This document shows positions 264 to 38,796 of a stretch of DNA of 39,097 nucleotides, in pieces. The stretch lies in assembly GCA_013298595.1 (NCBI GenBank), contig JAAFIG010000042.1:1-39097 (forward strand), given 5' to 3'. The stretch is from Deinococcales bacterium (GTDB lineage: Bacteria; Deinococcota; Deinococci; Deinococcales; JAAFIG01). The notes below the pieces were generated by a model. That model saw only the letters and a program-made list of their open reading frames with translations, ran no database searches and was not told where the DNA came from. Position numbers and translations under genes: made by a program. Numbering within the stretch: the first letter of the stretch is position 1; every line of letters begins with the position of its first letter.

Positions 264-1829
264 ATGCCCGACAATGCACTCGAGTTCTTCCAAGCCGCCC
301 TCGCCGAAATGGAAGAACGCCGTAAAGCGGTTCAACTTGGTGGTGGCTTAGAACGCCAGAAAAAACAACGTGAACAAGGCAAACAGACTGCTCGAGAACG
401 CATCGAAGTGCTTTTGGATGAAGGTAGTTTTGTTGAAACCAGTGTCTTTGTTGAACATTTGGATACCAATTTGATGGCAGGGGTCGAGGCACCTGGTGAG
501 GGTGTGGTGACTGGTTTTGGTACAGTGAATGGGCGTAAAATCTGTGTGTTTAGTCAGGATTTTACGGTGCTGGGCGGTAGTCTTGGTAAAATGAATGCTG
601 CCAAAATTGCTAAGGTCATGGATTTAGCGGTCAAAGTAGGTTGCCCCATTGTTGGTTTGAACGATTCGGCTGGGGCGCGGATTCAAGAAGGTGTGGATAG
701 CCTTTCTGGATATGGCGAAATTTTTTATCGCAATGCCATTTACAGCGGTGTCGTACCGCAAATCAGTGCGATTCTTGGTCCGTGTGCTGGTGGTGCGGTG
801 TACAGCCCAGCTTTAACCGATTTTATTGTCATGGCTCGAGGCAGTAGTTATATGTTTATTACGGGTCCAGAAGTGATTAAAAGTGTGACTCGAGAAGATG
901 TGAGTTTTGAAGCTTTGGGTGGCGCGGATGTGCATAGTTCTAAAAGTGGTGTTTGCCATCTTGAAGGTGAGAACGACCGTGATGTGCTCGAGAAAATTAA
1001 ACTTTTGCTTGGGTTTTTACCATCCAATGCCAAAGAAACTGCGCCTTTGCGGACTTCTCGGGATACAAAAAATCGTAAAACCCCACAAATTCTTGAAATT
1101 GTTCATCCAGATCAACGTAAACCATACCCAATGCTTGAGGTGATTCATACGATTGTGGATGATGCTGAATTTCTCGAGATTCAACCTGATTTTGCGAAGA
1201 ATATGATTTGTGGTTTTGCTCATCTTGGTGGGCAAAGTGTGGGGATTGTGGCAAATAATCCGCGTTTTATGGCAGGGGTGTTAAACATAGATGCTTCGGA
1301 TAAAGCTGCGCGATTTATTCGCACTTGCGATTGTTACAACGTGCCGATTGTTACGTTAGTAGATGTCACAGGGTTTTTACCTGGGGTTGCCCAAGAACAC
1401 CAAGGTATTATTCGTCATGGCGCGAAAATGCTGTATGCCTACGCCGAAGCCAGTGTGCCAAAAATTACACTGATTACCCGTAAAAGCTATGGTGGTGCGT
1501 ACCTCGCCATGAACTCTCGAGACATGGGAGCAGATGTGGTTCTGGCATACCCGAATGCAGCCGTGGCAGTTATGGGCGCAGAAGGGGCAGCTAATATTAT
1601 TTATCGCCGAGAAATTCAAAAATCTGAGAATCAAGCGGCTACTCGAGCCGAAAAAATTGCTGAGTACAAAGCAGCCTTTGACAACCCATATGTGGCAGCT
1701 TCTCGGGGCTACATAGATGATGTCATTCATCCAGAGGATACTCGGATTCATCTGATCGCGCACCTTGAAATGTTACATGGCAAACGCGAAGAACGCCCAT
1801 TCAAGAAACACGATAATATCCCGCTTTGA
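264..1829 (+). CDS. Acyl-CoA carboxylase carboxyltransferase (beta) subunit
   Basis: This is a 521-residue carboxyltransferase of the PccB/MmdA family, which moves a carboxyl group from biotin to an acyl-CoA such as propionyl- or acetyl-CoA in the cytoplasm. Family length is about 510-530. The N-terminal half holds the biotin-side crotonase fold with GARIQEGVDSLSGYGEIF and GPCAGGAVYSPALTDF. The C-terminal half holds GFLPGVAQEHQGIIRHGAKM and the acyl-CoA oxyanion loop region KSYGGAYLAMNSR with GAEGAANIIYRREI. The start ATG 264 is chosen because a TATACT box lies six bases upstream. The partner biotin carboxylase/carrier subunit is not in the window, so substrate is open: propionyl-CoA is most likely, methylmalonyl-CoA decarboxylase is an alternative. 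It is followed convergently by the next gene with 25 bases between stops. Confidence 0.95.
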   Translation: MPDNALEFFQAALAEMEERRKAVQLGGGLERQKKQREQGKQTARERIEVLLDEGSFVETSVFVEHLDTNLMAGVEAPGEGVVTGFGTVNGRKICVFSQDFTVLGGSLGKMNAAKIAKVMDLAVKVGCPIVGLNDSAGARIQEGVDSLSGYGEIFYRNAIYSGVVPQISAILGPCAGGAVYSPALTDFIVMARGSSYMFITGPEVIKSVTREDVSFEALGGADVHSSKSGVCHLEGENDRDVLEKIKLLLGFLPSNAKETAPLRTSRDTKNRKTPQILEIVHPDQRKPYPMLEVIHTIVDDAEFLEIQPDFAKNMICGFAHLGGQSVGIVANNPRFMAGVLNIDASDKAARFIRTCDCYNVPIVTLVDVTGFLPGVAQEHQGIIRHGAKMLYAYAEASVPKITLITRKSYGGAYLAMNSRDMGADVVLAYPNAAVAVMGAEGAANIIYRREIQKSENQAATRAEKIAEYKAAFDNPYVAASRGYIDDVIHPEDTRIHLIAHLEMLHGKREERPFKKHDNIPL

Positions 1830-1854
1830 CCCGCATGGGTTTTGCAGCAGTTGC

Positions 1855-2739
1855 CTATCCTTCTTGCGTTTTATTGCCACGTTTACGAAAACGTCTGCGC
1901 TTTTTGCCTTTACCAGCTTCTTCACCTTCAACTCGAGGGGTTTGTAGTGCAGTTTGGTGTTGTACTCGAGGTTGTTGCTGTGCCTTTTGAGCGGCTTCGG
2001 GGTATTTCCCTTGGGGTTTATGTCTGCTTCGCGGGCGTTTATGAGCCTGATTTGATTGGTTTTGTTGGGGGCGTTGCTCGCTGGTACGAGTTAACGTGGA
2101 TTCAAGCACAAAACGCCCAATGGCTTGCACAAATTTTAATGGACGATATGGTGCTTCGGCTTCGATATAAATAAATCCCATGCCAGGACGTAAATAATAA
2201 GCTCGAGCCATGACCTCACCCCAAGGTGTTTCCACTGGCTCGTCATCGAGTCGAGTAACCAGCACTGTGCCACCAATCATTGGCACGCGCACCGTCATGA
2301 TTTCAGGGTCAAGGTCGCGCAACAATTGCACAATCGAAAGTGGATCGTGATAATCCTGAGTTAAAGCTTGGGTTGCTTCATCTCGATTTTGTTTTAAGGT
2401 CACTGTGCCAGCCCGACGATCAAAAATGGTTTCAAAAATTCGCCCATTATCGTTCTCAGAAAACATCATTGGTAAACGCAAATGAGCCGCGAATCTCGAG
2501 ACCTGCACCCGCCGCGACATCCCCAAAGAACCCTGAAAAATTGCTTCACGCCGAATCAGGTATTGTCCCTTATCAAATTGCGTCATCCAACGCTCAGAAC
2601 CCGCTGCTGCCCCAGCATAGACCATACTAAAAAAGAATTCCTCGGCGCGTAATGGCAACGGTTGCCAAGGCTCGAGCGGCACAAGGCTCTGGCTGATAAC
2701 AGCTTCACTCGAGGGGATTTGGTTGATTTCGGCATCCAT
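1855..2739 (-). CDS. DUF3108-like protein with a strongly basic C-terminal tail
   Basis: A protein of 294 residues if it starts at the ATG at 2739. The body (residues ~20-205) carries DPLSIVQLLRDL, similar to the 'DPLSALYYLR' stretch of DUF3108 proteins, so I assign it there tentatively. The last ~75 residues are low complexity, rich in Gln, Arg and Lys, and end in GKGKKRRRFRKRGNK, a probable nucleic-acid or acidic-polymer binding tail. A longer frame reaches 2820, but the upstream part overlaps the small gene at 2753-2929, and a TAGGCT box lies seven bases before ATG 2739, so I prefer 2739. No signal peptide is seen. It is the last gene of a minus-strand run beginning with the ABC permeases; its link to transport is unknown. 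Confidence 0.75.
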   Translation of the reverse strand: MDAEINQIPSSEAVISQSLVPLEPWQPLPLRAEEFFFSMVYAGAAAGSERWMTQFDKGQYLIRREAIFQGSLGMSRRVQVSRFAAHLRLPMMFSENDNGRIFETIFDRRAGTVTLKQNRDEATQALTQDYHDPLSIVQLLRDLDPEIMTVRVPMIGGTVLVTRLDDEPVETPWGEVMARAYYLRPGMGFIYIEAEAPYRPLKFVQAIGRFVLESTLTRTSEQRPQQNQSNQAHKRPRSRHKPQGKYPEAAQKAQQQPRVQHQTALQTPRVEGEEAGKGKKRRRFRKRGNKTQEG

Positions 2740-2752
2740 AAGGCACAGCCTA

Positions 2753-2929
2753 TCAAAAATCGGTTTCAGATGTCTGCTGCCAACCCAACCCAGCATAAAT
2801 ACGTTCTCGAGACCAACCAATTAAAACTTCAAGCTCGAGTAACAACGTTTCGGCAGCAGGGTCTGATGGCTCGAGGGCACGTAAAGCAGCCCATAGCGTA
2901 TTGCGCTGCTCGAGAAATTCGCGGGTCAT
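2753..2929 (-). CDS. Small 58-residue protein, translationally coupled to the ABC permease
   Basis: Read on the minus strand: MTREFLEQRNTLWAAL at the start and QQTSETDF at the end, stop TGA at 2755-2753. Its ATG shares one base with the TAA of the upstream permease gene (TAATG), a classical stop-start coupling. It fills the gap between the permease and the next gene exactly and contains four CTCGAG sites, three of them read as Leu-Glu, like real genes here. The protein is acidic and probably helical, with Leu-Glu repeats in its middle and no membrane segment or signal peptide. I do not recognise a family. It could be an assembly factor or regulator of the permease, or simply an uncharacterised small protein. 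Confidence 0.7.
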   Translation of the reverse strand: MTREFLEQRNTLWAALRALEPSDPAAETLLLELEVLIGWSRERIYAGLGWQQTSETDF

Positions 2930-4044
2930 TAATTTCTGGTTTGTGTGTCGGCTGCGTCACGTAGGGCATCGCCTAAAAAATTAAATGCCAGCACCGAAAT
3001 AATAATCATGCCACCAGGAATCAGTAACCACGGGGTACGTGTCAGCACACCAAAACCACCTTCGCGCACTTCGGCAAGTAAAATACCCCAACTGGTCATG
3101 GGTTCTTTAACACCAAGCCCAAGAAAACTTAGGGCACTTTCGCCAAGGATATACCCTGGGATCGCAAGGCTGGCTGTGACAATCAGATAACTGGTTAAGT
3201 TAGGCACAATATGCCGCAAAATAATGCGTAAATCTGAAGCACCAAGGGCTTTGGCGGCTTGGGTGTAATCAACACTTTTAGCACTCAGCACCAAACCACG
3301 TACTACTCGAGCTAAACCAGCCCAACCAATCAATGCCAGCACTGCAATAATACCAAGGTACACATAGGTACTCGACCAATTGGCAGGAATGACATACGAC
3401 AATGCCAACAGAATTGGTAAGCGTGGAAAGCTCATCAGCACTTCGGTTAAGCGTTGAATCAGCATATCTACCCACCCACCGTAATAACCACTAATTCCAC
3501 CCATGATAATGCCAATGGTAAATGAAATCAGAATACCAATAATACCCACTGTCAAAGAAACTTGTGAACCAACCACCATTCTCGAGAATAAACAACGCCC
3601 AAGTTTATCTGTGCCTAATGGAAAGAAATTACCTTCAGCAATACCAAATAAGTGAATATCGGTTTTAAACCCTAAAAAATTGTACTCCTCGCCTTTAGCA
3701 AATAAATGCAGACCTTGTGGGTTGGTTTTGTCTTCGGCATAGTTTTTTTCAAAAGTCACAGGGTCTCGAGTGACTTTCATTGGGTAAACAAAAGGTAAAC
3801 GCAAACTGCCTTCGTGAACAATATGAATTCCTTGTGGCGGCTGCAATGGCGATTCGCTATGTTGCGTGGCAATTGCGTAAGGTGCAACAAAACCTGCCAA
3901 TAACGTTATTAAATACATAAACGCTAAAATCCAGAATCCGACCACACCAAGACGATTTTTCTTAAAACGCCGCAATGCCAATTGCCATAAACTCAACGAA
4001 ACTTTTTCTTGGATTGCTACCGCACTCGAGGAAATTACAGCCAT
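2929..4044 (-). CDS. ABC transporter permease, DppC/OppC type
   Basis: A 371-residue inner-membrane permease of the peptide/nickel (DppC/OppC) family. It has an N-terminal cytoplasmic stretch, one membrane segment (~30-55), a ~90-residue periplasmic insert between TM1 and TM2 as is usual in this subfamily, then five further segments. The EAA coupling loop reads YTQAAKALGASDLRIILRH and contacts the ATPase. The start ATG 4044 has GAGGTG a few bases upstream. It follows the DppB-type permease by 39 bases on the same strand and is coupled to the 58-residue gene downstream. No ATPase or solute-binding protein lies nearby, so the substrate cannot be named; peptides or oligosaccharides are typical. 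Confidence 0.92.
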   Translation of the reverse strand: MAVISSSAVAIQEKVSLSLWQLALRRFKKNRLGVVGFWILAFMYLITLLAGFVAPYAIATQHSESPLQPPQGIHIVHEGSLRLPFVYPMKVTRDPVTFEKNYAEDKTNPQGLHLFAKGEEYNFLGFKTDIHLFGIAEGNFFPLGTDKLGRCLFSRMVVGSQVSLTVGIIGILISFTIGIIMGGISGYYGGWVDMLIQRLTEVLMSFPRLPILLALSYVIPANWSSTYVYLGIIAVLALIGWAGLARVVRGLVLSAKSVDYTQAAKALGASDLRIILRHIVPNLTSYLIVTASLAIPGYILGESALSFLGLGVKEPMTSWGILLAEVREGGFGVLTRTPWLLIPGGMIIISVLAFNFLGDALRDAADTQTRN

Positions 4045-4083
4045 ACAACACCTCGAGCTAACTTAACTGCTTTTTTATTAGGT

Positions 4084-5055
4084 TTAGTCATAACGAATCC
4101 TTGGGTCTACAGCGGCTAAAGCAATATCGGCAAGTAAATTACCAATCATCAGCATAAATGCCGAAAGTAACAAAATGCTCATGACAACGTACTGGTCTTT
4201 GGCTAACAGACTGCTGTACATAAATGGTCCAATAGTTGGTAAATTCATCACCACAGCACCAATTAATGTGCCACTGACTAACTCGGATAAACTTAAACCT
4301 GCACTCGAGACCAATGGATTGAGTGCATTTCGTACCGCATGACGATAAATCACAATTCTGTCGGCTAAGCCTTTAGAACGGGCGGTTCGTACATAATCTT
4401 GGTTTAAAACATCCAGTAAACTTGCCCGCATTTGGCGTTGCAAACTGGCAATATGGTTTAAGCCAAAGACCAAAATTGCGGGCCAGAGATGATTGAGATG
4501 ATCCCAGAATTTTGCCCATGACCACGGTGCGTCTATAAATTCGTTACTGAATAAACCACCTACATTGGTGCCACCAAAACCCAAAATCAAACTAAATAAT
4601 AGTAATCCCAACAAAAAATCTGGAATGGCTAACCCAATATAGCCAAAAAAACTAGCAACGCTGTCTACAATGCCGTTTTTACGAACCGCTGTAAAAATCC
4701 CTAATGGAATTGCCACCAGCCAACTAAAAATTAAGGATAAACCTGCAACTTCGATTGTCCAACCTAAATACTCGCCAATTAAACTGGTCACAGGGCGATT
4801 ATTAACAAACGAGTAACCCAAATCAAAACGTGTAATAATACCCCACAACCAATTCAAATACTGAATCATAACGGGTTGATCTAAACCATACTGCGCTTTT
4901 AAACGCACCACTGTTTCAGGCGAGAATCGCGGATCCTCGAGGTACGTGTCAATAAAACTAGTGGGTTGTAGTTGAATCACCCAAAAGGAAATAAAGGACA
5001 CCAAAAGTAATGTCGGAATAATGCTCAATGAGCGTTTAAGAAGAAAGGTCAGCAC
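4084..5055 (-). CDS. ABC transporter permease, DppB/OppB type
   Basis: A 323-residue inner-membrane permease with the family hallmark N-terminus (MLTFLLKRSLSIIPTLLLVS as TM1), the GLDQPVMIQYLNWL stretch after TM1, and an EAA loop DYVRTARSKGLADRIVIYRH. It ends in DPRIRYD, the usual C-terminal signature. The start is GTG at 5055. A possible promoter upstream on the minus strand is TTCAAT, 16 bases, TATGAT. It pairs with the DppC-type gene to form the heterodimeric pore. As usual the two are adjacent, but the binding protein normally found just upstream is replaced here by an unrelated gene. Confidence 0.92.
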   Translation of the reverse strand: MLTFLLKRSLSIIPTLLLVSFISFWVIQLQPTSFIDTYLEDPRFSPETVVRLKAQYGLDQPVMIQYLNWLWGIITRFDLGYSFVNNRPVTSLIGEYLGWTIEVAGLSLIFSWLVAIPLGIFTAVRKNGIVDSVASFFGYIGLAIPDFLLGLLLFSLILGFGGTNVGGLFSNEFIDAPWSWAKFWDHLNHLWPAILVFGLNHIASLQRQMRASLLDVLNQDYVRTARSKGLADRIVIYRHAVRNALNPLVSSAGLSLSELVSGTLIGAVVMNLPTIGPFMYSSLLAKDQYVVMSILLLSAFMLMIGNLLADIALAAVDPRIRYD

Positions 5056-5167
5056 AGGAATCAGGTTGAATCATATTACGAAGTGATGTCCATTGAACAC
5101 CCTATTGGCACCAAAACCGCTCGAGTATTTTGTATTTGCGTCAGCAACAGCATTTTAACTACTTTAC

Positions 5168-5593
5168 TCAATTTGGCACTGTCAATCGTAACAAGGCTAA
5201 CAATTTCTCGAGTCGTTGTTGTTCATTTAAAAAACCATAGCCTCGTTTACGGCTCAGCAATTGCTGGATAGCTTTCGTTTGCTCTGGTACACCATACAAT
5301 GCAGCCAATTGCTCGAGTTGATGACCTTCTGGTGGTGTGATAGTACAAGTTGCAAAAGTCGGACTGGAATTATACTCAACTTCAAGAACACCATTTTTGA
5401 AAACCCAGATTTTCAGTGAATCGCTTTCGTACTCGAGTACTGCCATCGCAAGCCCATCTTTTGATAATGCTTTGGCTCGAGTGGCTAATGTACCATTGGT
5501 ATCTGCCAGTAAAACCTCGTGCAAGGTTTTAGGCTCGAGTTCGGGATCCCTGATTATTTGTTTGTTATGCACAATAAAAACTTGTTGATTCAT
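5168..5593 (-). CDS. Conserved-looking hypothetical protein, 141 residues
   Basis: I do not recognise this family. The protein is soluble, with an N-terminal beta-rich part (residues 1-85) and a C-terminal helical part containing LEQLAALYGVPEQTKAIQQL and QQRLEKLLALLRL. It has no signal peptide or membrane segment. The ATG at 5593 is preceded by AAGGG at good distance, and it lies only six bases after the stop of the methyltransferase-like gene, so the two form an operon. Seven CTCGAG sites in 426 bases fit the local gene style. Confidence 0.7.
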   Translation of the reverse strand: MNQQVFIVHNKQIIRDPELEPKTLHEVLLADTNGTLATRAKALSKDGLAMAVLEYESDSLKIWVFKNGVLEVEYNSSPTFATCTITPPEGHQLEQLAALYGVPEQTKAIQQLLSRKRGYGFLNEQQRLEKLLALLRLTVPN

Positions 5594-5599
5594 AAGCCC

Positions 5600-6049
5600 T
5601 TAGTAAATCATGGGGATAAATTTTTTGACACGATCACGATACTCGGCATAGGCAGCAAATTGCTCAAGCAGCCATGCCTCTTCTCGGCGTGATTTTAACT
5701 CGAGCAGCACCGCCAGACAAACACAAAGCCCTAAAGCAATACCATGTCCGCGCTCGAGACTGGCTCCAAATGATAACAGCAGCAATGCTGAATAAATTGG
5801 ATGGCGCATCCAAGCAAACGCTCCAGAAGTAACCAGTTGTGCATCAGTTTTTGGTTTAGGTAATGGTGTTAAGTTGCGTCCTAAACTCAGTGCTGCCCAA
5901 ATCAGTAAAATCCAACCAAAGAATTTCATGACACTACCCAAGAGCAAGCTCGAGAATTGACCAATAGCAACAGCAGGCAAGAAAAAAATGAGAGCAAGTA
6001 ACAAAAATTGCAATACCACAAAAAACTCGCCTCGAGTATTCCACTGCAT
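5600..6049 (-). CDS. Isoprenylcysteine carboxyl methyltransferase-like membrane protein
   Basis: A 149-residue membrane protein of the ICMT/PEMT-like group. Residues ~1-60 form two to three membrane segments; the SAM-binding hallmark region is LVTSGAFAWMRHPIYSALLLL (positions ~82-102), and the C-terminus has AYAEYRDRVKKFIPMIY, matching 'Y..Y...V.RFIP' of the family. In bacteria these proteins methylate unknown small lipophilic substrates. The start ATG 6049 is chosen because TATACT lies six bases upstream on the minus strand (a leaderless promoter); a longer frame to 6184 would run across the divergent gene. The -10 box overlaps a CTCGAG. Confidence 0.85.
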   Translation of the reverse strand: MQWNTRGEFFVVLQFLLLALIFFLPAVAIGQFSSLLLGSVMKFFGWILLIWAALSLGRNLTPLPKPKTDAQLVTSGAFAWMRHPIYSALLLLSFGASLERGHGIALGLCVCLAVLLELKSRREEAWLLEQFAAYAEYRDRVKKFIPMIY

Positions 6050-6055
6050 AACTCG

Positions 6056-6061
6056 AGTATA
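6056..6061 (-). promoter_or_regulatory. -10 box of leaderless promoter for the ICMT-like gene
   Basis: On the minus strand TATACT spans 6061-6056, with six bases before the ATG at 6049. Its last two bases, CT, are the first two bases of a CTCGAG, so the iterated palindrome is woven into the promoter and any modification of it could affect transcription. Confidence 0.55.
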
Positions 6062-6107
6062 AACCCAAATTGAACGTAATTTACTGCAATTGCGTAGGTA
6101 TAGATGA

Positions 6108-7253
6108 ATGAAACAAATAATCTTTTTTCTATTTATTGCAATAACATTCATTGCAGCTTCAAAAGTAGCACCAACCAGTAACATACTATCTTTGTCTCAC
6201 ACAGCTCTTTGGCTAACCACGGATGATAAAAATATTTTTGCCCTTTTAGACTCAGGAGAGGTCCTTCGCGCAGATGGTAAAGCACTGGTGGTAGTTGCAA
6301 AAAATTGGAGTCCCGAAGCTCCAATCAAATTTGCCTATGGGCGATTGCATGGAATCACTGCACAAGGCGAACTGGGTGTTTTAGAAGACACAAAACTTCG
6401 CTCGAGCAATGGAGCAAAACTCTCCTTGAACTCTGGGTTGCTGCCCCTTCCTGCTGGTGTTATTGCTATCACCAAAGCAGGTGATTTAGTCAGATTAGAA
6501 GCGCGTAACGAGCAGTGGGAGATTACAGCTCGTGCTAAACTGAATGTCTTGACAGATGGAAGAATTGCCTTTGCCGACCTTGAAGGAGACAACGATAATG
6601 AAGTGGTAGCACTTATTTCCCCCTCAAATACTCGTTATCAACACGGTATCCTTGGCGATACCACCGAAGCAACTGCGATTGTGGCACTGGAACGGCATTC
6701 ACTCGAAGTTCTATGGCGTTATGATCTACCAGCACCGTATGTTTTTGAAGATTTAACAGTACGCCCAATCAGAATCGGAACTCGAGACCACTTAGCTGTC
6801 GTTCGTTCAAGCCCAACAGGAGGAGCTGCCCTAGCACTACTCAGTTTGAAAGCTGGTAAGCTTGAATTAAATGCAGGACAGGATTTCGGACAAGCTAATC
6901 GGTGGTTAAACCCAATTGTCGGATTTGGCGAAATCTATGCAATTAACACACCACACATTGGTGGGGTGTTACATCAGTACTCAACTCAACTGCAAAGCAC
7001 GAAACAGCTCGAGAATGTATCCAACCACAGCATTGGTTCACGTCATCTCGAACTTGCTTTAACTACTGCTCCAAAACAACTTATTACCTTAAATCAGAGT
7101 TATACAAAACTCGAGAAAATTGATTGCCAAAAATCTTGTATCCGAACTGCTCAGTACAACCTGAATGCAGTTTACTCGAGCAACCTTATTCAACTAAAAA
7201 ACACTGTGTCTATTGCCACAAAAGATAATAAACTCCATTTCTGGCAACCATAA
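6108..7253 (+). CDS. Exported protein, probable beta-propeller (FG-GAP/VCBS-like)
   Basis: A 381-residue protein with a signal peptide (MKQIIFFLFIAITFIAAS) and a beta-rich body. DGRIAFADLEGDNDNEVVAL (~residues 151-170) resembles an FG-GAP/VCBS calcium-binding repeat, and further strands such as HSLEVLWRYDLP fit a propeller of repeated blades. Cys339 and Cys343 (DCQKSC) could form a disulfide. It is divergent from the ICMT-like gene with 58 bases between starts. CTCGAG sites are sparse in the first 300 bases. The function is unknown; binding or sensing outside the cytoplasm is an inference from the fold. Confidence 0.75.
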   Translation: MKQIIFFLFIAITFIAASKVAPTSNILSLSHTALWLTTDDKNIFALLDSGEVLRADGKALVVVAKNWSPEAPIKFAYGRLHGITAQGELGVLEDTKLRSSNGAKLSLNSGLLPLPAGVIAITKAGDLVRLEARNEQWEITARAKLNVLTDGRIAFADLEGDNDNEVVALISPSNTRYQHGILGDTTEATAIVALERHSLEVLWRYDLPAPYVFEDLTVRPIRIGTRDHLAVVRSSPTGGAALALLSLKAGKLELNAGQDFGQANRWLNPIVGFGEIYAINTPHIGGVLHQYSTQLQSTKQLENVSNHSIGSRHLELALTTAPKQLITLNQSYTKLEKIDCQKSCIRTAQYNLNAVYSSNLIQLKNTVSIATKDNKLHFWQP

Positions 7254-7260
7254 ATGCTTT

Positions 7261-7956
7261 TTACTTTTTCAATAAAGCCTCGAGGATTGCTTTGGTTTTC
7301 GACCAGTCTGGGTTAGCTAAGGCTTTATACAGACGCAAATAACGAAAACTTGCACTACCACCAGTCACGGTGAACCCCAAATTGGCTTTTGTTGCCACAA
7401 GTGCTTCGTGTGAACCCAAAGAAACCTTCATTTGCTGCACAGATTCATTACCATCACCAACTAAACGCGCCAGCATTTCCTGACCCGAAAACTCGAGCAC
7501 CATGCCGTACCAGCGCCCAACTTCGAGATTGGTTTTGACCATGTTAAATGGAACAGCTTTATCCGCACCTTTGTGGTCGTGATCGTCTTTACGGGCTTGA
7601 AAACCCGTTGGTGCAATAACCACTCGAGCTAAATGCCCAGTGGCATCATTTAGACTTAAACTGATTTGTTTAGCCCCATTTAATTTGAACTGCACAGCAA
7701 TGATGCCATCTTGAAATTGCAGATTCTGACGAAAAGTGGCAGCGTGCTTATCCGCTGGGATTTCTGTGCCTTGCACAGCACCATCCACAATTTCCCATTT
7801 GCCTTTACCCGCTTTCCAAGCACTCGAGATGGCACTTAAATCATCGGTTAGAACAAGTGTATCTCGAGTTGTCATCAGTGTCTGCGGCTCGAGGCTTTGT
7901 GCACCAGCAAAAGTCAGAGCGGTCAGTGTGGTCAGTAAAAGAATGGTCTTATTCAT
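7261..7956 (-). CDS. Exported LamG/DUF1080-like protein
   Basis: A 231-residue exported protein. Signal peptide MNKTILLLTTLTALTFAGAQ is followed by a jelly-roll-like domain: WKAGKGKWEIVDGAVQGTE, then RQNLQFQDGIIAVQFKL, WYGMVLEFSGQEMLARLVGD and FRYLRLYKA near the end. This order of strands and the 'G.W...DG...G' opening match DUF1080/LamG-type proteins (concanavalin A-like fold), often glycan-related. The ATG at 7956 is chosen for the signal peptide; a longer frame to 8016 adds 20 unlikely residues. It ends eight bases from the convergent upstream gene. Confidence 0.8.
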   Translation of the reverse strand: MNKTILLLTTLTALTFAGAQSLEPQTLMTTRDTLVLTDDLSAISSAWKAGKGKWEIVDGAVQGTEIPADKHAATFRQNLQFQDGIIAVQFKLNGAKQISLSLNDATGHLARVVIAPTGFQARKDDHDHKGADKAVPFNMVKTNLEVGRWYGMVLEFSGQEMLARLVGDGNESVQQMKVSLGSHEALVATKANLGFTVTGGSASFRYLRLYKALANPDWSKTKAILEALLKK

Positions 7957-8027
7957 CTTAAATTTTGGATAGCAAAAAGTTGGATAAAGTTCCCAGCAAT
8001 TAATAAGTCCCTTCACACTTGATGCTT

Positions 8028-8033: not shown

Positions 8034-8040
8034 AAAAACC

Positions 8041-10396: not shown

Positions 10397-10427
10397 CAAG
10401 AAACTAGAGGTATATAAAACAAAAAAC

Positions 10428-10444
10428 GCGCCACTTATGGGCGC
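10428..10444 (-). terminator. Hairpin followed by T-run on the minus strand (orphan terminator?)
   Basis: On the minus strand GCGCC and GGCGC pair over a short loop and are followed by G and six T, an intrinsic-terminator layout. No minus-strand gene lies upstream of it, so it may end antisense transcripts entering the DUF885-like gene, or be chance. The rest of 10397-10555 shows only the region just before ybaB. Confidence 0.3.
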
Positions 10445-10555
10445 TGATAGGAAATAGTGTATCACGGTATGCGTTATGCGTCAAGACTATGCACTTGAGA
10501 CTGTGATAGACAACAAATTTTGCACCTCCAAGGATTCTGGTAGACTATTTTGGTT

Positions 10556-10864
10556 ATGAATATTCAAAAAATGATGAAACAAATGCAAAAAGCCCAAGCC
10601 GCTCAAGCCGACATGCAGGACAAACTCGAAGCACTCGAGATCACAGGCAGTGCAGGTGGTGGTATGGTCAAAGCTGTTTGCAGTGGCAGCGGACAAATTA
10701 AAAGCCTTAAACTTGACAAAGTTGTTGTAGACCCAGAAGATGTCGAAGCACTCGAGGATTTAATCTTAGTTGCCCTCCAAGACGCGCAACGCAAAGCCAA
10801 CGAAGCCCAACAAGGCGAAGTCAGCAAACTGATGAGCGGTTTACAAATACCAGGTATGCGTTAA
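10556..10864 (+). CDS. YbaB/EbfC family nucleoid-associated protein
   Basis: A 102-residue YbaB/EbfC DNA-binding protein, usual length for the family. It has the N-terminal helix MNIQKMMKQMQKAQAAQADM, the beta hairpin GSAGGGMVKAVCSGSGQIKSL and the signature DPEDVEALEDLILVALQDA. It works as a dimer that coats DNA. In many bacteria it follows dnaX and precedes recR, but neither is here. Start at ATG 10556; TAGACT and TATTTT boxes lie 9 and 4 bases upstream, consistent with a short or absent leader. TTG 10550 is an alternative start. Confidence 0.95.
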   Translation: MNIQKMMKQMQKAQAAQADMQDKLEALEITGSAGGGMVKAVCSGSGQIKSLKLDKVVVDPEDVEALEDLILVALQDAQRKANEAQQGEVSKLMSGLQIPGMR

Positions 10865-31505: not shown

Positions 31506-31669
31506 CCGCTACAAGTTTTAAGCTATGTAGTTTTCGAGTTTTACCAAACGCAACCCCAACAATTTAGCTTTCGTTTTTGCTTTCTTCTTTCTTAACCATT
31601 ACTTCATTGAACATTGAACTTTTCTTAACCCAAGAAACAATTCATCTTTTTTTGCGCTAGGCTATAGAC

Positions 31670-32227
31670 ATGAAAAGAATCTTTGCTATGTCGGCATTGG
31701 CTTTAAGCCTCTCGGGTTGCTTCTTTGTTGTGCCTGACCGTTCAAGCACTCCAGAATATCGTCCTATCACCACAACACCTGCACCAAACCCTGCGCCGAA
31801 TCCTGGACCTGTTGCTGTTTCACCACGTCCTGTCACAGCCAATATTATTCAAGATTTCCAACCAACTCGAGGTAATGGTGGCGCGTACCGAGTTGGCGAA
31901 AGTGTTGTTTTCCGTGCAGCTGTCAACCGTCCTGGGTTTATGACTTTGGTGTTTTACAACGATGGTGCTTTGCCTGATTATGAAGTGCGTAACATTGCTG
32001 TGCAACCTGGTTTGAATCTGATTCCGAATACCAATGTGGTGGTTGCTGCTGAACCAACAGGTGTGACTCGAGTGCGTGGGTTTTTCACACCACAACCCAA
32101 TAATGCCGTTTCGTTCTTGAATGGTTCTGGGGTTTCTTTCCTCGAGAACACCAGCAATACTTACCTCAGTGGTTATCCTGTGGAGTTGCGTGATATTGCT
32201 GATACTTTCTTGGTTGTAACGCGCTAA
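31670..32227 (+). CDS. DUF4384-like lipoprotein
   Basis: A 185-residue lipoprotein. Signal with lipobox LSGC (Cys17), then a Pro/Ala/Asn-rich linker (residues ~30-52), then the beta-sandwich: IIQDFQPTRGNGGAYRVGES, VFRAAVNRPGFMTLVFYNDG and TRVRGFFTPQ, the pattern of DUF4384, which is common in Deinococcus-Thermus. It is probably anchored in the envelope facing the periplasm or outside. TAGGCT lies six bases before ATG 31670 (leaderless). It ends at a strong terminator. Confidence 0.85.
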   Translation: MKRIFAMSALALSLSGCFFVVPDRSSTPEYRPITTTPAPNPAPNPGPVAVSPRPVTANIIQDFQPTRGNGGAYRVGESVVFRAAVNRPGFMTLVFYNDGALPDYEVRNIAVQPGLNLIPNTNVVVAAEPTGVTRVRGFFTPQPNNAVSFLNGSGVSFLENTSNTYLSGYPVELRDIADTFLVVTR

Positions 32228-32242
32228 GTTTTGTTGTGTTTC

Positions 32243-32272
32243 AAAGGGCAAACCATGTGTTTGCCCTTTTTT
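32243..32272 (+). terminator. Intrinsic terminator of the lipoprotein gene
   Basis: Perfect 11-bp stem AAAGGGCAAAC / GTTTGCCCTTT over loop CATGT, followed by further T. It lies 16 bases after the stop codon. Confidence 0.9.
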
Positions 32273-32286
32273 GTTGGTTTGTTTGT

Positions 32287-32292
32287 TAATCT
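32287..32292 (+). promoter_or_regulatory. -10 box of leaderless promoter for the histidine kinase
   Basis: TAATCT lies six bases before the GTG at 32299. It supports GTG 32299 as start, only 27 bases past the preceding terminator. Confidence 0.5.
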
Positions 32293-32298
32293 ATACAG

Positions 32299-35043
32299 GT
32301 GTTATCAGCTTTATCTGATTCAGAAAGTCCATTGGTGTATTTACCTGCCAGTGCACTGGAACGTTTCACATCGCTGCTGATTTCTAATCCGCCGCTCGAG
32401 TTGCTGCTCGAGGAAACATTGCTGGGTTTATCTGAAATTCTGGATATTGAAGCGATGGTTTTGTACACTTTTAGCAGTGATGAATTGCGTCCGTTGGTGG
32501 CAAAACAGCGTTCTCAAAGCAATTTTTTAGCATCGGTAATGGTGCAACGTCGTAGCGCTTGGTGGTCTTCACTCGAGTCTGGTATGCCATTGTTATTTGC
32601 CCTTGGTGTGTCAAATACGCCACGTGGTTTTGAAAGTTTGCCAGGGCAGGCATTGGCATTATTGCCCTTATCTGGTTCTCAAGGCGTGGTACGAGGTGTA
32701 TTAGCTTTAACTCGTCGGCATAAAACAAGTTTTGTGTTATCCGATCAACAAGTCTTAATGGCGATGGCTCGAGTGGTGGCTATTTGTGTAGAAAAACAAT
32801 TGACACCAACTTCGGCGGGCAATGCTGAAATTGTGGCTTTATCTGGTTTGATGCGTTTGCTTGAAAATATCTCGAGCGAAGCGACTTTGCGTCGTTCTGC
32901 GTTGGAAATGCTGCGTCCGCATTTGGCTGGAGTGAGTTTGTGTTTTGTGCGTTTAGACTCCGAGCGTTTGCTGCTACTTGAATTTGATGGTAACGAGCAA
33001 CTGGCACAAACACTACGTGATAGTAGTGCGCCCGATGAAGCTGTATTACTCGAGGCGGTGTTATCCAACAGTACTGGTTTTTTTGATGTGCTCCCCAAAG
33101 ATTTAGGGCGTTTCTCGAGTGTTGGTGTGACAGCTGTCAGTGCCGTACCCTTACCTTCGGGTATGGCGTTGCTGGCATTACGCAGTGCAGTGGCTTCGCG
33201 TTGGTCAGAATCGGAACGGCGTTTATTAGGGGCGGCTGGTCGAATGATCGGCGCTGCTATGGAACGCTTACGGGTAGCCGATGCTTTATTTGAAGCTCGA
33301 GTCCGAGCAGAATTACTGGCAGGTTTATCTGATGCCTTACAAGCGGCTCAAACTGCCGATGAAGTCACCCAAATAACCATGCGTTTGTTGGCTCCACATT
33401 TACGTGCCGAAAATGTTTTCGCACTGCGTATTATCCGCGAACCACAACGCATTATGGTGCGAGGGATGGGAGCTTGGGGAACCATTCCCGAGGCATACCT
33501 CAATCATTTTGCTGCTCCTGGTTTAGCACTCGAGCAAACCAAATTAACCCGTTTGGTGTTTGAAAAAAATCAGGCGTTTTACAACGATGTTTACACTCGA
33601 GGTAAAACAGGTGATGTGATTGCTTTAGGGGTCGAACCTGTACGTGATTCTCGAGGGCAAGTGATTGCTATTATCTCGGTGGGACGCGATCCAAACTTGG
33701 GAGTATGGCGTGCCAGCGAACGGGAATTACTGGCTCGAGCCGCTGCGACAGTGGGTTTGGCTTTGGAGCGCACCGAAGTCCGTGAGGAATTACTGCGCGC
33801 TAAGCAACGTGCCGAAGTTTTATCGCGTTTATCTGATGCTTTACAAGTTGCCCAAAAAGGCGAAGAAGTTGCCGAATTTGCTATGAAATTACTAGCACCC
33901 AATTTACATGCTTTGAATATTATTACTCTGAAAATAGATCAGCGCCCCGAAGGTGTGTTTTTACGTTCAATGGGTGTTTGGGGCGAATTACCCGATTTAT
34001 ACGATGGCTATTTTCGTTCCCCTGGCGTGGCAATTGACACCACCACTATTTCTCGAGAAATTTTTCTAACAGGTAATCCGTATTATCACACGGCTTATGT
34101 TGAAGCTGCTATTCAGGGTTTAGAAAAACGACAAATCAGCATCGGACTTGAACCCATTTCCGATTCGCATGGGCGGGTTCTGGCTATTTTATCGGTTGGG
34201 CGCGAACCCAGTATTGGTGCTTGGATGCCTTCGGAAATGAAATTAATGGCACAAGCCGCCGCAACCGTTGGCTTAGCCTTAGAACGCGCTGCTAACCGCG
34301 AATTACTAGAAACTCGAGCCGCTGCTCTTGAAGAAAATAGTTCTGCCTTAGAAGCTAAAAGTGCCGAGATGGAAGCTTTTGTGTACAGTGTTTCGCATGA
34401 CTTAAAAAGCCCAATGGTTTCGCTTGAAGGCATGAGCGTGCTGCTCGAAGAAAGCCTTGCCAATAAGGAATACGATGAACTCGAGTTCTTTGTTTCGCGT
34501 TTACGCGCCAATGTACAAACCATGACTTCTTTGGTCAATGGTTTACTCGAGTTATCTCGGATTGGTAGGGTTAATGAAAGCATAGATCAAGTGGATGTGG
34601 CTGCTGTTGTGCAAACTGTGCTTAACGAATTTGAAGGGCGTATCCGTGAGAAGAAAATCCTGGTTGAACAAGTGCAGGTTTTTCCGAAAATTTGGTATTC
34701 ACCAGAACGGGTTTATCAAATTTTTGCCAACCTGATTGGTAATGCTGTTAAATTTATGCCCGAAGATCGCCAAGGTATTCTCGAGTTGGGTTTCCGAATT
34801 CGGCAAAACCTCGAGTTTTACGTTGCCGATAATGGGCTTGGCATTGCACCGCACTTAAAACAAAAAGCGCTGGAATTATTCTCGAGATTAAATCCAACTG
34901 TGGATGGTACAGGTGTCGGTTTAGCCATGGTCAAACGCATTGTGGATCATAACGATGGAGCTGTTCGGCTCGAGGATACAGCGGGCGGTGGGTTAACAGT
35001 TGTTTGGACGGTGCCACTTGATCGTTTCATCGAAAACCACTAG
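32299..35043 (+). CDS. Multi-GAF sensor histidine kinase
   Basis: A 914-residue cytoplasmic sensor kinase. Residues ~25-170 and ~180-325 are GAF-like. Residues ~337-500 and ~505-665 are a duplicated GAF pair (both carry LSDALQ.AQ, G.WG..P..Y, the stretch around GLEP/GVEPV..DS.G and ATVGLALER). A short coiled coil (RAAALEENSSALEAKSAEME) leads to the HisKA domain with phospho-acceptor His700 (YSVSHDLKSPM), then the ATPase domain (IFANLIGNAVKFM, DNGLGI, GTGVGLAMVKRI). It has no membrane segment, so it senses an internal or diffusible signal; none of the GAF domains shows a bilin-type cysteine that I can identify. No response regulator lies next to it. Confidence 0.92.
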   Translation: MLSALSDSESPLVYLPASALERFTSLLISNPPLELLLEETLLGLSEILDIEAMVLYTFSSDELRPLVAKQRSQSNFLASVMVQRRSAWWSSLESGMPLLFALGVSNTPRGFESLPGQALALLPLSGSQGVVRGVLALTRRHKTSFVLSDQQVLMAMARVVAICVEKQLTPTSAGNAEIVALSGLMRLLENISSEATLRRSALEMLRPHLAGVSLCFVRLDSERLLLLEFDGNEQLAQTLRDSSAPDEAVLLEAVLSNSTGFFDVLPKDLGRFSSVGVTAVSAVPLPSGMALLALRSAVASRWSESERRLLGAAGRMIGAAMERLRVADALFEARVRAELLAGLSDALQAAQTADEVTQITMRLLAPHLRAENVFALRIIREPQRIMVRGMGAWGTIPEAYLNHFAAPGLALEQTKLTRLVFEKNQAFYNDVYTRGKTGDVIALGVEPVRDSRGQVIAIISVGRDPNLGVWRASERELLARAAATVGLALERTEVREELLRAKQRAEVLSRLSDALQVAQKGEEVAEFAMKLLAPNLHALNIITLKIDQRPEGVFLRSMGVWGELPDLYDGYFRSPGVAIDTTTISREIFLTGNPYYHTAYVEAAIQGLEKRQISIGLEPISDSHGRVLAILSVGREPSIGAWMPSEMKLMAQAAATVGLALERAANRELLETRAAALEENSSALEAKSAEMEAFVYSVSHDLKSPMVSLEGMSVLLEESLANKEYDELEFFVSRLRANVQTMTSLVNGLLELSRIGRVNESIDQVDVAAVVQTVLNEFEGRIREKKILVEQVQVFPKIWYSPERVYQIFANLIGNAVKFMPEDRQGILELGFRIRQNLEFYVADNGLGIAPHLKQKALELFSRLNPTVDGTGVGLAMVKRIVDHNDGAVRLEDTAGGGLTVVWTVPLDRFIENH

Positions 35044-35045
35044 CG

Positions 35046-35069
35046 ATTCTGCCAAGAACAGAATATAAT
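35046..35069 (+). promoter_or_regulatory. Promoter with inverted repeat before the DNA-metabolism gene
   Basis: ATTCTG (35046-35051), seven bases, CAGAAT (35059-35064) form an inverted repeat; its last base starts TATAAT (35064-35069), a perfect -10 box. A regulator bound to it would cover the promoter. AAGGAG (35085-35090) before ATG 35095 shows this gene, unlike many here, has a leader. Confidence 0.55.
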
Positions 35070-35094
35070 AGTTGCATTCCCATGAAGGAGTCTC

Positions 35095-35982
35095 ATGCCC
35101 TTTGATCCACGCCAACATTTACTCAACCTCAAAGGTAAAGATTATTTACCTGTCGCAGCTCGTTTAATCTGGCTGAACGAAGAAGCCAGCCGTTACACCA
35201 TCCGCACCGAAATCCTCAAACTCGAGGATACTTATGCCATTGTCCAAGCGACAATTACTGTGCTCGACGATGCAGGTAACGCCATTAAAACCACCACTGC
35301 TACCAAACGCGAAGATAAAACTCATTTTCCCGATTACCTCGAGAAAGCCGAAACAGGTTCAATCGGACGAGCCTTAGGCATGCTTGGGTACGGTACACAA
35401 TTTGCGCCAGAATTTGATGAACTCAATGGATTACTCGAGGCTCGCGTGGTGGATAAACCACAAGCCCGTGCTGAACCTGTAACACCGACGCGTACTGAAC
35501 CTGTAACACCAGCAGCCCGAGTTGAACCTGTCACACACCCCGCTCGAGCCACCGAACCCACAGAACCAGAAGCCCCACGCCCTAAACTCTCGAGTATCCC
35601 ACTTAAACCAGCTTCGCAATTACAAGCACCGACCAACGCCCGTAAACCAAAACTCGAGGATTTCCCAACACCCAACCCAACTCGAGTCGCCGCCTCTCCT
35701 CTACCCGACATAGATGACGGGTTAGAAGAATACGACCACGCTGCTGTACCCGACGAAGATTTATTCAGCCCAGCCAAAGTCGAACGTTTACTAGCGATTG
35801 GCAGTAACCTCTTTAACTTAAAAGGCGATATGCTCGAGTTACGTTTACTCGAAGCTGCCAGTAAAATCCTTAAACGCAGCATTGCCGATGTTCACGCTTT
35901 ACATTGGCGAGACGGTGGTGAAGTGATGCGGCAACTCGAGGAACAAGCCATTAAACGTGGTGTTTGGGAACGTCGAGGATAA
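35095..35982 (+). CDS. DNA-metabolism protein with 'KAETGSIGRAL' domain (possible recombination/annealing protein)
   Basis: A 295-residue protein. Residues 1-115 form a conserved domain: FDPRQHLLNLKGKDYLPVAARLIWL, then DYLEKAETGSIGRALGMLGYGTQFAPEFDE. From memory this arrangement occurs in Deinococcus/Thermus and many phage proteins annotated as hypothetical; the 'ETGSIGRAL' helix recalls the 'YGRRYAL' region of Erf/Rad52-like ssDNA-annealing proteins. Residues ~120-200 are a Pro/Ala/Glu-rich linker with EPVTP repeats, and ~225-295 a helical C-terminal domain. A role in repair is an inference. The start is supported by AAGGAG. Confidence 0.7.
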   Translation: MPFDPRQHLLNLKGKDYLPVAARLIWLNEEASRYTIRTEILKLEDTYAIVQATITVLDDAGNAIKTTTATKREDKTHFPDYLEKAETGSIGRALGMLGYGTQFAPEFDELNGLLEARVVDKPQARAEPVTPTRTEPVTPAARVEPVTHPARATEPTEPEAPRPKLSSIPLKPASQLQAPTNARKPKLEDFPTPNPTRVAASPLPDIDDGLEEYDHAAVPDEDLFSPAKVERLLAIGSNLFNLKGDMLELRLLEAASKILKRSIADVHALHWRDGGEVMRQLEEQAIKRGVWERRG

Positions 35983-35997
35983 AAACTGAATGACAAA

Positions 35998-36024
35998 GGT
36001 GTTTTATTAAATGCCAAAAACACC
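35998..36024. terminator. Shared hairpin between convergent genes
   Basis: GGTGTTTT and AAAACACC pair over an 11-base loop, exactly between two convergent genes (stops at 35982 and 36029), so it can terminate both. Confidence 0.55.
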
Positions 36025-36028
36025 ATGC

Positions 36029-36565
36029 TCAATTTGGTTGAAAGTACACATACGTAGCAATGTAATCAACTTTAGCTTCTTTACCCAGATTGGTAGTGGC
36101 ATTGCAGGCTGTATTGGGTGCTTTGCCACCCTCTGTCTCGAGGCGTTGCACGTAACTGGCGTTGCTCAGTAATCCTTTGCCTTCACGACTTTTGACTGCT
36201 AATAGCAACCACGGTATTGCATCACTATCAGTGCTATTGACTCGAGCTTTGACTTCTCCAATTATTTTAGAACCATCTTGGTACATCCAAAATGGACCCG
36301 CACCGTGCGTGCCAACTTTTGTATCTTCATCATCGAATAAATCTGCTAATGGCGCTTTAAAAGCCCATTCATAACCGCTGTTATCGGCTTTGGCTTGGCA
36401 AATATACAGTTGCACACCACGAGCCAGCAATTGTAAGTAAGCTTGATACCCAGTTGGTGCTGCCAGTTCAGCGGGTGCTTTAACTGGTGTAAAGACAGTT
36501 CGAGGAGCACACGAAACCATACCAGCAGCAAATAACGAAAGACTGACCATACCTAATTTATTCAT
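36029..36565 (-). CDS. DUF3455 lipoprotein
   Basis: A 178-residue protein. Signal with lipobox-like MVSC (Cys19), then the DUF3455 pattern: LLARGVQLYICQAKAD, YEWAFKAPLADLFDDE, GTHGAGPFWMYQDGSKIIGE, IPWLLLAVKSREGKG, then VQRLETEGGKAP. Function unknown; family members are exported. It begins a minus-strand envelope cluster with Rieske, SOD and CHRD proteins, though its spacing (60 bases from Rieske) leaves co-transcription open. Confidence 0.88.
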   Translation of the reverse strand: MNKLGMVSLSLFAAGMVSCAPRTVFTPVKAPAELAAPTGYQAYLQLLARGVQLYICQAKADNSGYEWAFKAPLADLFDDEDTKVGTHGAGPFWMYQDGSKIIGEVKARVNSTDSDAIPWLLLAVKSREGKGLLSNASYVQRLETEGGKAPNTACNATTNLGKEAKVDYIATYVYFQPN

Positions 36566-36625
36566 ACAGATCTCTTTTCTGACCCGAGTTCATTGGTTTA
36601 CTCGAGTTACGTATTTATTGGTGGT

Positions 36626-37096
36626 TTATGACAGCGTACCAATGGCAAAAACTTTGTTATTTTGGACAACTAATTTGATACCTTTGAGTGGGCTGTTGGC
36701 AGGACCTGCCAGTACTGCACCATCTTGGATTTGAAATTTTGACCCATGACAACCACAACTCAATTCGCGTTGTGGTTTATTAGCAAAAACTGTGCAGCCT
36801 TCGTGGGTACAAGTGAGGGTATAAGCGGTTAAGTAGCTGTCACCTGTTTTGAGGATTCGTTCAGATTTCAGGGCTTCTTCGCTGGGTTTTGGTATGCGTA
36901 TAAGTAAAGCTTCTTCGTAAGGTAATTTAAAAATCACCTGATCCCATTCCTCTTTGAGCACACTTAGTTCTGCTATTTCGATGGGGTTTGTAAAACGATC
37001 CAATTGATTTTTCGCCTGTACCACAAAACCCAAACTGGCAGCACTGATCAAAATGGAACAACCTAAAGCTTCTCGGCGACTGATGTGCGGTGCCAT
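36626..37096 (-). CDS. Rieske [2Fe-2S] protein, Tat-type signal
   Basis: A 156-residue Rieske protein. Cluster ligands Cys96-Thr-His98 and Cys114-x-x-His117, with Cys101 and Cys116 able to form the disulfide of high-potential Rieske proteins (CTHEGC ... CGCHGS). The N-terminus ISRREALGCSILISAASLGF is twin-arginine-like, so it is probably exported folded and anchored. No cytochrome b or c1 gene is next to it, so it is not a standard bc1 subunit. AAGGGGG precedes ATG 37096, 14 bases after the SOD stop; the two form an operon, suggesting a role in superoxide or redox defence. Confidence 0.9.
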   Translation of the reverse strand: MAPHISRREALGCSILISAASLGFVVQAKNQLDRFTNPIEIAELSVLKEEWDQVIFKLPYEEALLIRIPKPSEEALKSERILKTGDSYLTAYTLTCTHEGCTVFANKPQRELSCGCHGSKFQIQDGAVLAGPANSPLKGIKLVVQNNKVFAIGTLS

Positions 37097-37110
37097 TATT
37101 GTAACCCCCT

Positions 37111-37857
37111 TTAGATCAAGGCTTTGGCTTTGAGGTATTCAACCTCGAGTTGAGTCCAATTGAGACTGGCAAGTACTGCTTTTACATAATCAGCTCGACG
37201 GTTTTGAAATTTTAAGTAATATGCGTGTTCCCAGACATCAATACCTAAAACTGGAATTAAACCCTGAGCCAGTGGCGAATCTTGGTTAGCTGTGGAAATC
37301 ACACTGAGTTTGCCCTGAGCATCCAGCACCATCCACGCCCACCCTGAACCAAAGCGTTTATTGGCAGCATCGGTGAGTTTTGTTTGTAGATTCTCGAGTG
37401 AGGCAAATGCTATCTGGATTGCTTCTTTCAGTGTTGCAATTGGTTGTTTAGCACCACCTGGTTGTAGTATGCGCCAGAATAACTGGTGATTGAGTGAGCT
37501 ACCTGCATTATTACGAATTGTTTCACGCACAGTTTCGGGAAGTTGAGCATAATGAGCTGCCAGTTCTGCTAAACCAAGACGGTGCAACTCGGGTTGGTCT
37601 TTAAGAACAGTATTTAGATTGGCTACTGCCGCTGCATGGTGTTTGTTGTGGTGTAAATCAAAGGTTTGCGCGTCGAGAACAGGCTCGAGTGCATCGTTGG
37701 CATATGGCAGACTTGGCAAGGCAAATGGGTAACGTCCGAGTTCGTTTTCAAAATTACTTAAAGGTAAAGTACGAGCCAAAGCACGCACAGGACCAATACC
37801 TGTGTAGGCAGCCAATGTACCAAGTAGCGAGAGCCGAATAACTTGTCGTCGGTTCAT
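37111..37857 (-). CDS. Superoxide dismutase (Fe/Mn), exported
   Basis: A 248-residue Fe/Mn superoxide dismutase with an extra ~40-residue N-terminus, NRRQVIRLSLLGTLAAYTGIG, a Tat-like signal; typical cytosolic enzymes are ~200 residues. The mature part begins YPFALPSLPYANDALEPVLD. Metal ligands are His69 (FDLHHNKHH), His124 (SLNHQLFW), Asp207 and His211 (DVWEHAYYLKF). It turns superoxide into oxygen and peroxide outside the cytoplasm, a location implied by the signal. TAGGAG precedes ATG 37857. It is followed by the Rieske gene. Confidence 0.93.
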   Translation of the reverse strand: MNRRQVIRLSLLGTLAAYTGIGPVRALARTLPLSNFENELGRYPFALPSLPYANDALEPVLDAQTFDLHHNKHHAAAVANLNTVLKDQPELHRLGLAELAAHYAQLPETVRETIRNNAGSSLNHQLFWRILQPGGAKQPIATLKEAIQIAFASLENLQTKLTDAANKRFGSGWAWMVLDAQGKLSVISTANQDSPLAQGLIPVLGIDVWEHAYYLKFQNRRADYVKAVLASLNWTQLEVEYLKAKALI

Positions 37858-37927
37858 GATGTACTCCTAGTAAACATCTTGAGTGAATTGGTCAATTTGT
37901 TTTGAAAAGCGCTGAGTAAACATCATC

Positions 37928-38389
37928 TTATTGCAGTTTTAACTGACCACGTATTTCGCCAGCTTTGTTAGCAGCGGTATGAATATTGATGTAGAATTTG
38001 CCATCTACCAAATTGCTGACCGTTGCTCCTGAAGTGCTGCCATCAAGGTTACAAGTGGCATCTATTGTGCCTGTTCCAGCAGTGGCACTCGCACCCACAG
38101 CAATTTTGTCTGTGAAGTTACAGAGTACTCCGGCGGTACCGTTTTCATCGGCTAGACCGTGAATATGAGCGAGCGTTGGTATGCCACTCAGGTCGCGGTA
38201 CGTAATTTTTAGGTTTAGAGTTGTTCCTTCTACTGTGGCAGTAGCACTCCCTGTACCATTGGTGGTTATGGCTGTTGGACGTTCGTTAGCTCCATTTAAT
38301 GTGGCACTGTATTTTGGTAAAGCTGGTAGCGTATTACATGCGGCTAATGCCAAGAAACCCAGTACCACTGTGCTTAAAACTTTTAACAT
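37928..38389 (-). CDS. CHRD domain lipoprotein
   Basis: A 153-residue lipoprotein. Signal MLKVLSTVVLGFLALAAC with lipobox LAAC (Cys18), then a CHRD (chordin-like) domain: YSATLNGANERPTAITTNGTGSA, LKITYRDLSGIPTLAHIHG, GKFYINIHTAANKAGEIRGQL, the family ending. CHRD domains in bacteria are extracellular with unknown role; His-rich turns suggest metal binding. AAGGAG precedes ATG 38389. It contains no CTCGAG at all, as part of the longest CTCGAG-free stretch of the window. Confidence 0.92.
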   Translation of the reverse strand: MLKVLSTVVLGFLALAACNTLPALPKYSATLNGANERPTAITTNGTGSATATVEGTTLNLKITYRDLSGIPTLAHIHGLADENGTAGVLCNFTDKIAVGASATAGTGTIDATCNLDGSTSGATVSNLVDGKFYINIHTAANKAGEIRGQLKLQ

Positions 38390-38554
38390 AGATAACTCCT
38401 TATTTGGGTTTGCCAACCCGATGAGAGGGCGAAAAAACAACGATGTTCAAGCAGTGCTATTGCCATAGGCACTGGTGAGTCATTGGAATGCAATGACCTG
38501 ATGCGAGCAAACGCCTAAGATGTCGTGCAAAAATGTGGTTAAATATCCACTTAT
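38390..38554. other. Gene-free stretch upstream of the CHRD gene
   Basis: Start of a 413-base gap between the CHRD gene and the sigma factor gene. It must hold the CHRD promoter, but I see no convincing boxes. No open frame, RNA gene or CTCGAG was found in it. The rest of the gap is the inverted-repeat element. Confidence 0.5.
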
Positions 38555-38796
38555 CTCAAGAGACGCATACCCCTAGCAATTGGATGCACCATTGCTTGAG
38601 CAAACCAATTTGATTAAGCTATACCGCATATTTTTACATGAAATTCTCATAAAGTTTTACAGTTCAAATTCTTGTTTTGAATAATAAAATTACGTCAGGG
38701 ACAACATGAATTTATATTTCACTAATACAAAACAAACCTCGAGACTATCGTTTTGCATCCATTGCATCCAAACGTAACAACCATGCGTCTCTTGAG
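38555..38796. repeat. Compound inverted repeats framing 242 bases before the sigma factor gene
   Basis: CTCAAGAGACGCAT, 12 bases, TGGATGCA (38555-38588) is repeated in reverse as TGCATCCA, 12 bases, ATGCGTCTCTTGAG (38763-38796). All 22 conserved bases match and the 12-base spacing is the same. The inside is A+T-rich with one CTCGAG and no gene. It could be terminal repeats of a small mobile element or a pair of binding sites. The right copy ends six bases before ATG 38803 and contains part of its ribosome-binding site. Confidence 0.65.

Follow-up and report, generated by a model that had tools for sequence, protein, structure and literature searches.

The uptake sequences of Neisseriaceae and Pasteurellaceae are 9–12 bp long, non-palindromic, and present about once per kb. 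What iterated palindromes such as HIP1 do has been an unsettled question for decades. HIP1 occurs in cyanobacteria at 300–2,700 copies per Mb, and its alternates GGCGCC, GGGATCCC, TCGATCGA, rCCGGy, and GCsGC are each accompanied by a matching methyltransferase (PMC4390886); the account by Elhai mentions neither CTCGAG nor Deinococcus (PMC4390886). The palindrome described here resembles HIP1 in that it is genome-wide, has an observed-to-expected ratio (O/E) in the tens to hundreds, is conserved over a clade but missing or substituted in certain lineages, and has no settled role (PMC4390886). It is not HIP1 proper: its core is CTCGAG rather than GCGATCGC, and its hosts are Deinococcota rather than cyanobacteria. 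At about 5,900 copies per Mb it is also denser than the 8-mer HIP1, and no shared matching methyltransferase was found for it in the families compared. Beyond what is described for HIP1, CTCGAG has a 20-bp exclusion zone and leaves an imprint on the proteome. Like the uptake sequences it is a short word spread by a chromosome-wide process, but it is a 6-bp palindrome found once per 169 bp. XhoI/PaeR7I restriction-modification systems recognize the same six bases; XhoI-type nucleases (PF04555) are absent from the genome under study and seven of its relatives (G000–G007).

The window (the whole stretch of DNA that was analyzed, 39,097 bases) contains exactly 249 copies of CTCGAG, compared with 7.6 expected from base composition. 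The original prediction had put these figures at about 249 and about 10.

279..38743, no strand: CTCGAG copies, 249 in coding and non-coding DNA, every position listed
279..284, no strand: first CTCGAG of the window, within a carboxyltransferase gene
38738..38743, no strand: last CTCGAG of the window

Words differing from CTCGAG by one base are few, as had been noticed from the letters, with 0–15 copies each in the window. The genome to which the window belongs (G000, a Deinococcales MAG of 4.58 Mb in 68 contigs) carries 27,159 copies in 4,582,226 bases, that is 5.9/kb; a near-expected count elsewhere in the genome is thus not seen. Its reversal, GAGCTC, is present 15 times in the whole genome. 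The closest named matches of G000 are Deinococcales metagenome genomes, followed by Trueperaceae and Meiothermus, which places the organism in Deinococcota. The CTCGAG O/E was 59 against a dinucleotide model (440-kb sample) and, once the motif was masked, 73 against a trinucleotide model (531-kb sample). An unmasked order-4 Markov model returns about 224 copies trivially and is unusable, because CTCGAG itself generates the counts of CTCGA (273 in the window) and TCGAG (267). Masked trinucleotide ratios in three relatives of the same group (f1, comprising G000–G003) were 73, 54, and 35 for G001, G002, and G003, respectively, and masked ratios span 35–81 across these four genomes and G006.

The density is 6.17/kb within ORFs and 5.47/kb outside them, and coding copies are found in all three codon frames. 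Because the four f1 genomes keep a nearly constant density (∼6.0–6.5/kb) while their GC content runs from 0.45 to 0.59, and from 0.49 to 0.59 among the three relatives, composition cannot explain CTCGAG. An origin in composition, codon use, assembly artifact, or repeats has nothing in its favor beyond general caution on MAGs, and we give it almost no credence. It is already refuted by the masked ratios, by the similar density of coding and non-coding DNA, by the failure of codon use to predict the word (see below), and by the excess of CTCGAG in independent genomes of several genera, including the cultured Calidithermus and Meiothermus. The CTCGAG flood is a real, extreme, genome-wide feature, strongly over-represented in genes and intergenic DNA alike. 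It works like HIP1 and fits the general description of a HIP-like iterated palindrome with a new core, as originally proposed. No report of CTCGAG over-representation in Deinococcota was found in the open-licence papers searched, nor any described CTCGAG equivalent, and the feature is apparently undescribed before.

The word is used close to saturation. In G000, CTCGAG encodes 1,429 of the 2,051 Leu-Glu dipeptides (70%), a share that codon use elsewhere would put at 1.6%, and 65% of the frame-1 and 38% of the frame-2 opportunities are taken; the earlier statement that codon use is not the source of the excess is borne out. The proteome itself is affected: the dipeptide O/E in G000 is 2.34 for Leu-Glu and 0.97 for Glu-Leu, and G001–G003 agree, with 2.2–2.3 for Leu-Glu. 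In G007, which is without the motif, this ratio is 1.05. CTCGAG thus shows a DNA-level force able to bias a proteome, here 2.3-fold in favor of Leu-Glu.

Sites are partially conserved between G000 and G001, two genomes of one genus that we compared over 98 orthologous pairs with 72% nucleotide identity. CTCGAG stands at the aligned place in G001 for 332 of 564 G000 sites (59%), compared with 31% of other conserved dipeptides that keep an identical hexamer. Where Leu-Glu is kept in both proteins, G001 has CTCGAG at 82% of places if G000 does and at 64% if it does not, indicating that shared ancestry matters little and that the sequence returns to CTCGAG whatever its recent past. Each of the four synonymous base changes tested, which alter position 3 or 6 singly, is disfavored in all four genomes, with ln odds of 2.3–5.9, mostly 3–4. 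One-off neighbor words are not exhausted (O/E 0.19–3.1 in f1 and G006), and the transition neighbors of CTCGAG are mostly raised, as decay predicts. These data fit weak selection, or drive, on the exact word CTCGAG and support the earlier view that its upkeep requires one or the other. The weak dependence on ancestry would also be expected under drive, and uniform ln odds could also arise from a drive that treats every mismatch alike.

Distances between neighboring sites are non-random: they seldom fall below 24 bp, are in excess from 60 to 240 bp, and are too few above 480 bp. When codon opportunities were held fixed and the ones used were permuted, z for close sites reached −10.8. Pooled over the four genomes, abutting sites (6 bp) were never observed where 39 were expected, and co-occupancy was ∼0.25–0.45 at 6–17 bp, ∼0.62 at 18–23 bp, ∼0.8 at 24–35 bp, and near 1 past 60–80 bp. 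The exclusion is therefore graded with distance, not a step; a spacing of 7 bp is just mildly depleted (0.73). A Leu-Glu within 6–12 bp of another CTCGAG is occupied 17–39% of the time. Over whole genomes, pairs at 6–17 bp reach 0.32–0.60 of a uniform expectation in f1 and 0.40–0.46 in G005 and G006. In less enriched genomes they are mostly nearer 1, and at moderate enrichment the exclusion is weak or absent (G004, 0.76; G024, 0.85; G102, 1.26). The spread of the word, originally called even, is more regular than random at this short range, but densities per 5 kb are over-dispersed.

Two nearby copies of a self-complementary word such as CTCGAG could fold into a hairpin. We rejected hairpin avoidance as the source of the repulsion, because other 6-nt inverted repeats are undepleted at 9–24 bp. 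A flank rule was also seen in the four genomes: C is avoided three bases outside CTCGAG on both sides, with odds ratios of 0.37–0.47 downstream (p down to 6e-19) and 0.55–0.85 upstream, the latter not significant in G003. Six bases outside there is no consistent C effect, and the avoidance three bases out also holds at non-coding sites. The repulsion below 24 bp, its clean hairpin control, and the avoidance of C in the flanks are new here. Exclusion and flank rule together fit a putative protein reading ∼12 bp and covering ∼20 bp.

The best model, to which we assign an even chance of being right, is selection for dense occupancy by a putative sequence-specific DNA-binding protein. CTCGAG would be the core of the binding site of an abundant, probably dimeric protein that the cell may need along the whole chromosome, for nucleoid organization or another chromosome-wide function. 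Weak selection would keep each site, any one-base change costing about the same small fitness (the ln odds being mostly 3–4), and from such an equal small cost opportunities would fill to 40–70% and amino acids would shift towards Leu-Glu. Two sites within ∼20–24 bp could probably not both be usefully occupied, and the second would then be weakly maintained. The graded form of the exclusion, the mild depletion at 7 bp, and the weakness or absence of exclusion at moderate enrichment count against this model. We tentatively consider it possible, though rather doubtful, that this amounts to a methylation-unrelated, chromosome-wide binding system with a chromatin-like site code, having ∼170-bp spacing and ∼20-bp exclusion and reshaping the proteome. 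Among proteins encoded in the window, a homologue of YbaB/EbfC, a family widespread in bacteria, is one candidate for the CTCGAG binder.

10556..10864, + strand: ybaB/ebfC-like gene of a nucleoid-associated DNA-binding family (Pfam PF02575, E = 6.8e-28)

Just upstream of this gene lies an element of ∼80 nt (window positions 10418–10499) that has 75–83% identity in all four family genomes and is without an Rfam match.

Several processes other than occupancy could spread or keep such a word. The dedicated protein suspected in the original prediction was a methyltransferase, a repair enzyme, or a nucleoid protein. One rival is a methylation-linked ratchet as proposed for HIP1 (Elhai 2015), in which a methyltransferase marks CTCGAG and methyl-directed mismatch repair favors site-creating mutations. 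The matching methyltransferase of each alternate HIP in cyanobacteria speaks for this (PMC4390886), as do the CTCGAG methyltransferases that exist in giant viruses (PMC7253447) and in Halorubrum (PMC8112702) and the presence of at least five DNA methyltransferase genes in G000. Phylum searches with PF01555, PF00145, and PF02384, whose matches were all compared with one another, revealed no DNA methyltransferase common to G000–G003, whose genomes are 91–94% complete, and a PF07669 search added none in G000. Non-orthologous methyltransferases could share one specificity across f1. An exclusion zone of 20 bp does not follow from the ratchet model, whose range is about 1000 nt. Two particular enzymes were rejected as causes. 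The gamma-methyltransferase family A1, widespread in Meiothermus, where it looked promising, and in part of the Trueperaceae, has no member in G000 and G002–G007 and one weak partial match in G001, and is missing from several enriched Meiothermus and Calidithermus genomes, so its presence does not track CTCGAG density. Nor does f1 contain a close relative of the conserved PF01555 methyltransferase of Meiothermus/Calidithermus (L107, L110, and L112). On the families compared, a methyltransferase as cause is not supported, and we regard the ratchet as unlikely.

Drive by DNA uptake and recombination, in which a competence receptor prefers CTCGAG and thereby favors the import and spread of DNA bearing it, as in Neisseria and Haemophilus, is a somewhat poorer prospect still. 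Deinococcota are often naturally competent, uptake sequences are likewise genome-wide, and such a drive would make no distinction among one-off variants, which matches the data. Against this, one CTCGAG per 169 bp exceeds the roughly one per kb of uptake sequences, and the 20-bp exclusion zone is much shorter than the fragments. A Vsr-like or other mismatch-specific enzyme that converted one-off words to CTCGAG would yield an over-represented palindrome without any function. Specific conversion should empty its substrate word, yet no one-off neighbor is exhausted at the ratios given above for f1 and G006, and we consider this explanation highly improbable. The mutual exclusion below 24 bp is more readily reconciled with a bound protein than with an enzyme of repair or conversion. 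Selection for occupancy, rather than drive, is the reading we favor for the maintenance of the sites, and the exclusion would be caused by the bound protein.

We surveyed CTCGAG in a phylum set of 111 genomes, in which Deinococcaceae are absent. CTCGAG is densest, at 6–8/kb, in the four genomes of f1 and in G005 and G006 of f2, and G004, also f2, has 3.6/kb. Genera g10–g12 of f4, which are Meiothermus and Calidithermus by named loci, have 1.4–3.4/kb, Trueperaceae-like genomes mostly 1.2–2.3/kb, and the Thermus-like g13 ∼0.6–1.1/kb, close to the control word. G007, of the same family as G004–G006, has 0.3/kb (O/E 0.9) and is a clear loss of the enrichment. The pattern is one of clade-wide conservation with sporadic loss, f1, most of f2, and many relatives being enriched and G007 and g13 having lost it. 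CTCGAG thus adds an independent and denser HIP-like case from outside the cyanobacteria, and its spacing rule predicts the footprint of a protein. The cultured, milder-enriched relatives (Calidithermus and Meiothermus) together with the natural losses make the question of iterated palindromes directly testable.

XhoI-family nucleases were found only in G012–G014, beside a PF01555 methyltransferase (L396, L397, and L398), and, broken, in G108. CTCGAG stands at 0.7–1.0/kb in G012–G014 versus 1.65–2.0/kb in G009–G011 of the same genus, and the nuclease is a plausible cause of the reduction. XhoI-type nucleases are confined to genomes with reduced CTCGAG; they suppress the word and do not account for its excess. 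The O/E of TCGA is 0.53 in Thermus loci versus 2.49 in Meiothermus, in line with TaqI-like systems, which are a plausible cause of the CTCGAG reduction in Thermus.

Some further features of methyltransferase loci and viruses were observed. Plasmid homologues of A1 have a downstream ORF of 245–357 aa that no Pfam or NCBIfam model matched. The L107/L110/L112-type methyltransferase has a conserved downstream ORF of 284–300 aa, and similar scores were obtained for it in nearly all f4 g10–g12 genomes. Two viral scans for phages sharing CTCGAG gave mostly GC-rich chance matches and one eukaryote-virus-like fragment. This IMG/VR contig (L389; GC 0.38), with a Ras-like GTPase and RING-type proteins recognized by eye, has 3.1 CTCGAG per kb (O/E 26); orphan methyltransferases specific for CTCGAG have been described in giant viruses (PMC7253447).

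G000–G003 and G006 almost lack many other 6-bp palindromes, with 16–25 per f1 genome at an O/E below 0.1, and GGCC occurs 10 times in G000 versus 1342 expected. Most of the non-palindromic words shown as avoided include GGCC, CCGG, CCWGG, or a similar restriction-type site. In f1 this looks like heavy past restriction pressure, and it goes beyond what could be put down to the five methyltransferase genes of G000. G004 and G007 show no such avoidance; because G004 is enriched all the same, palindrome avoidance is not needed for CTCGAG enrichment. Finally, a REP-like inverted repeat, GGGCGAACCTTGTGTTCGCCC, lies at window positions 119–150 and has further copies in G000, G001, and G003.
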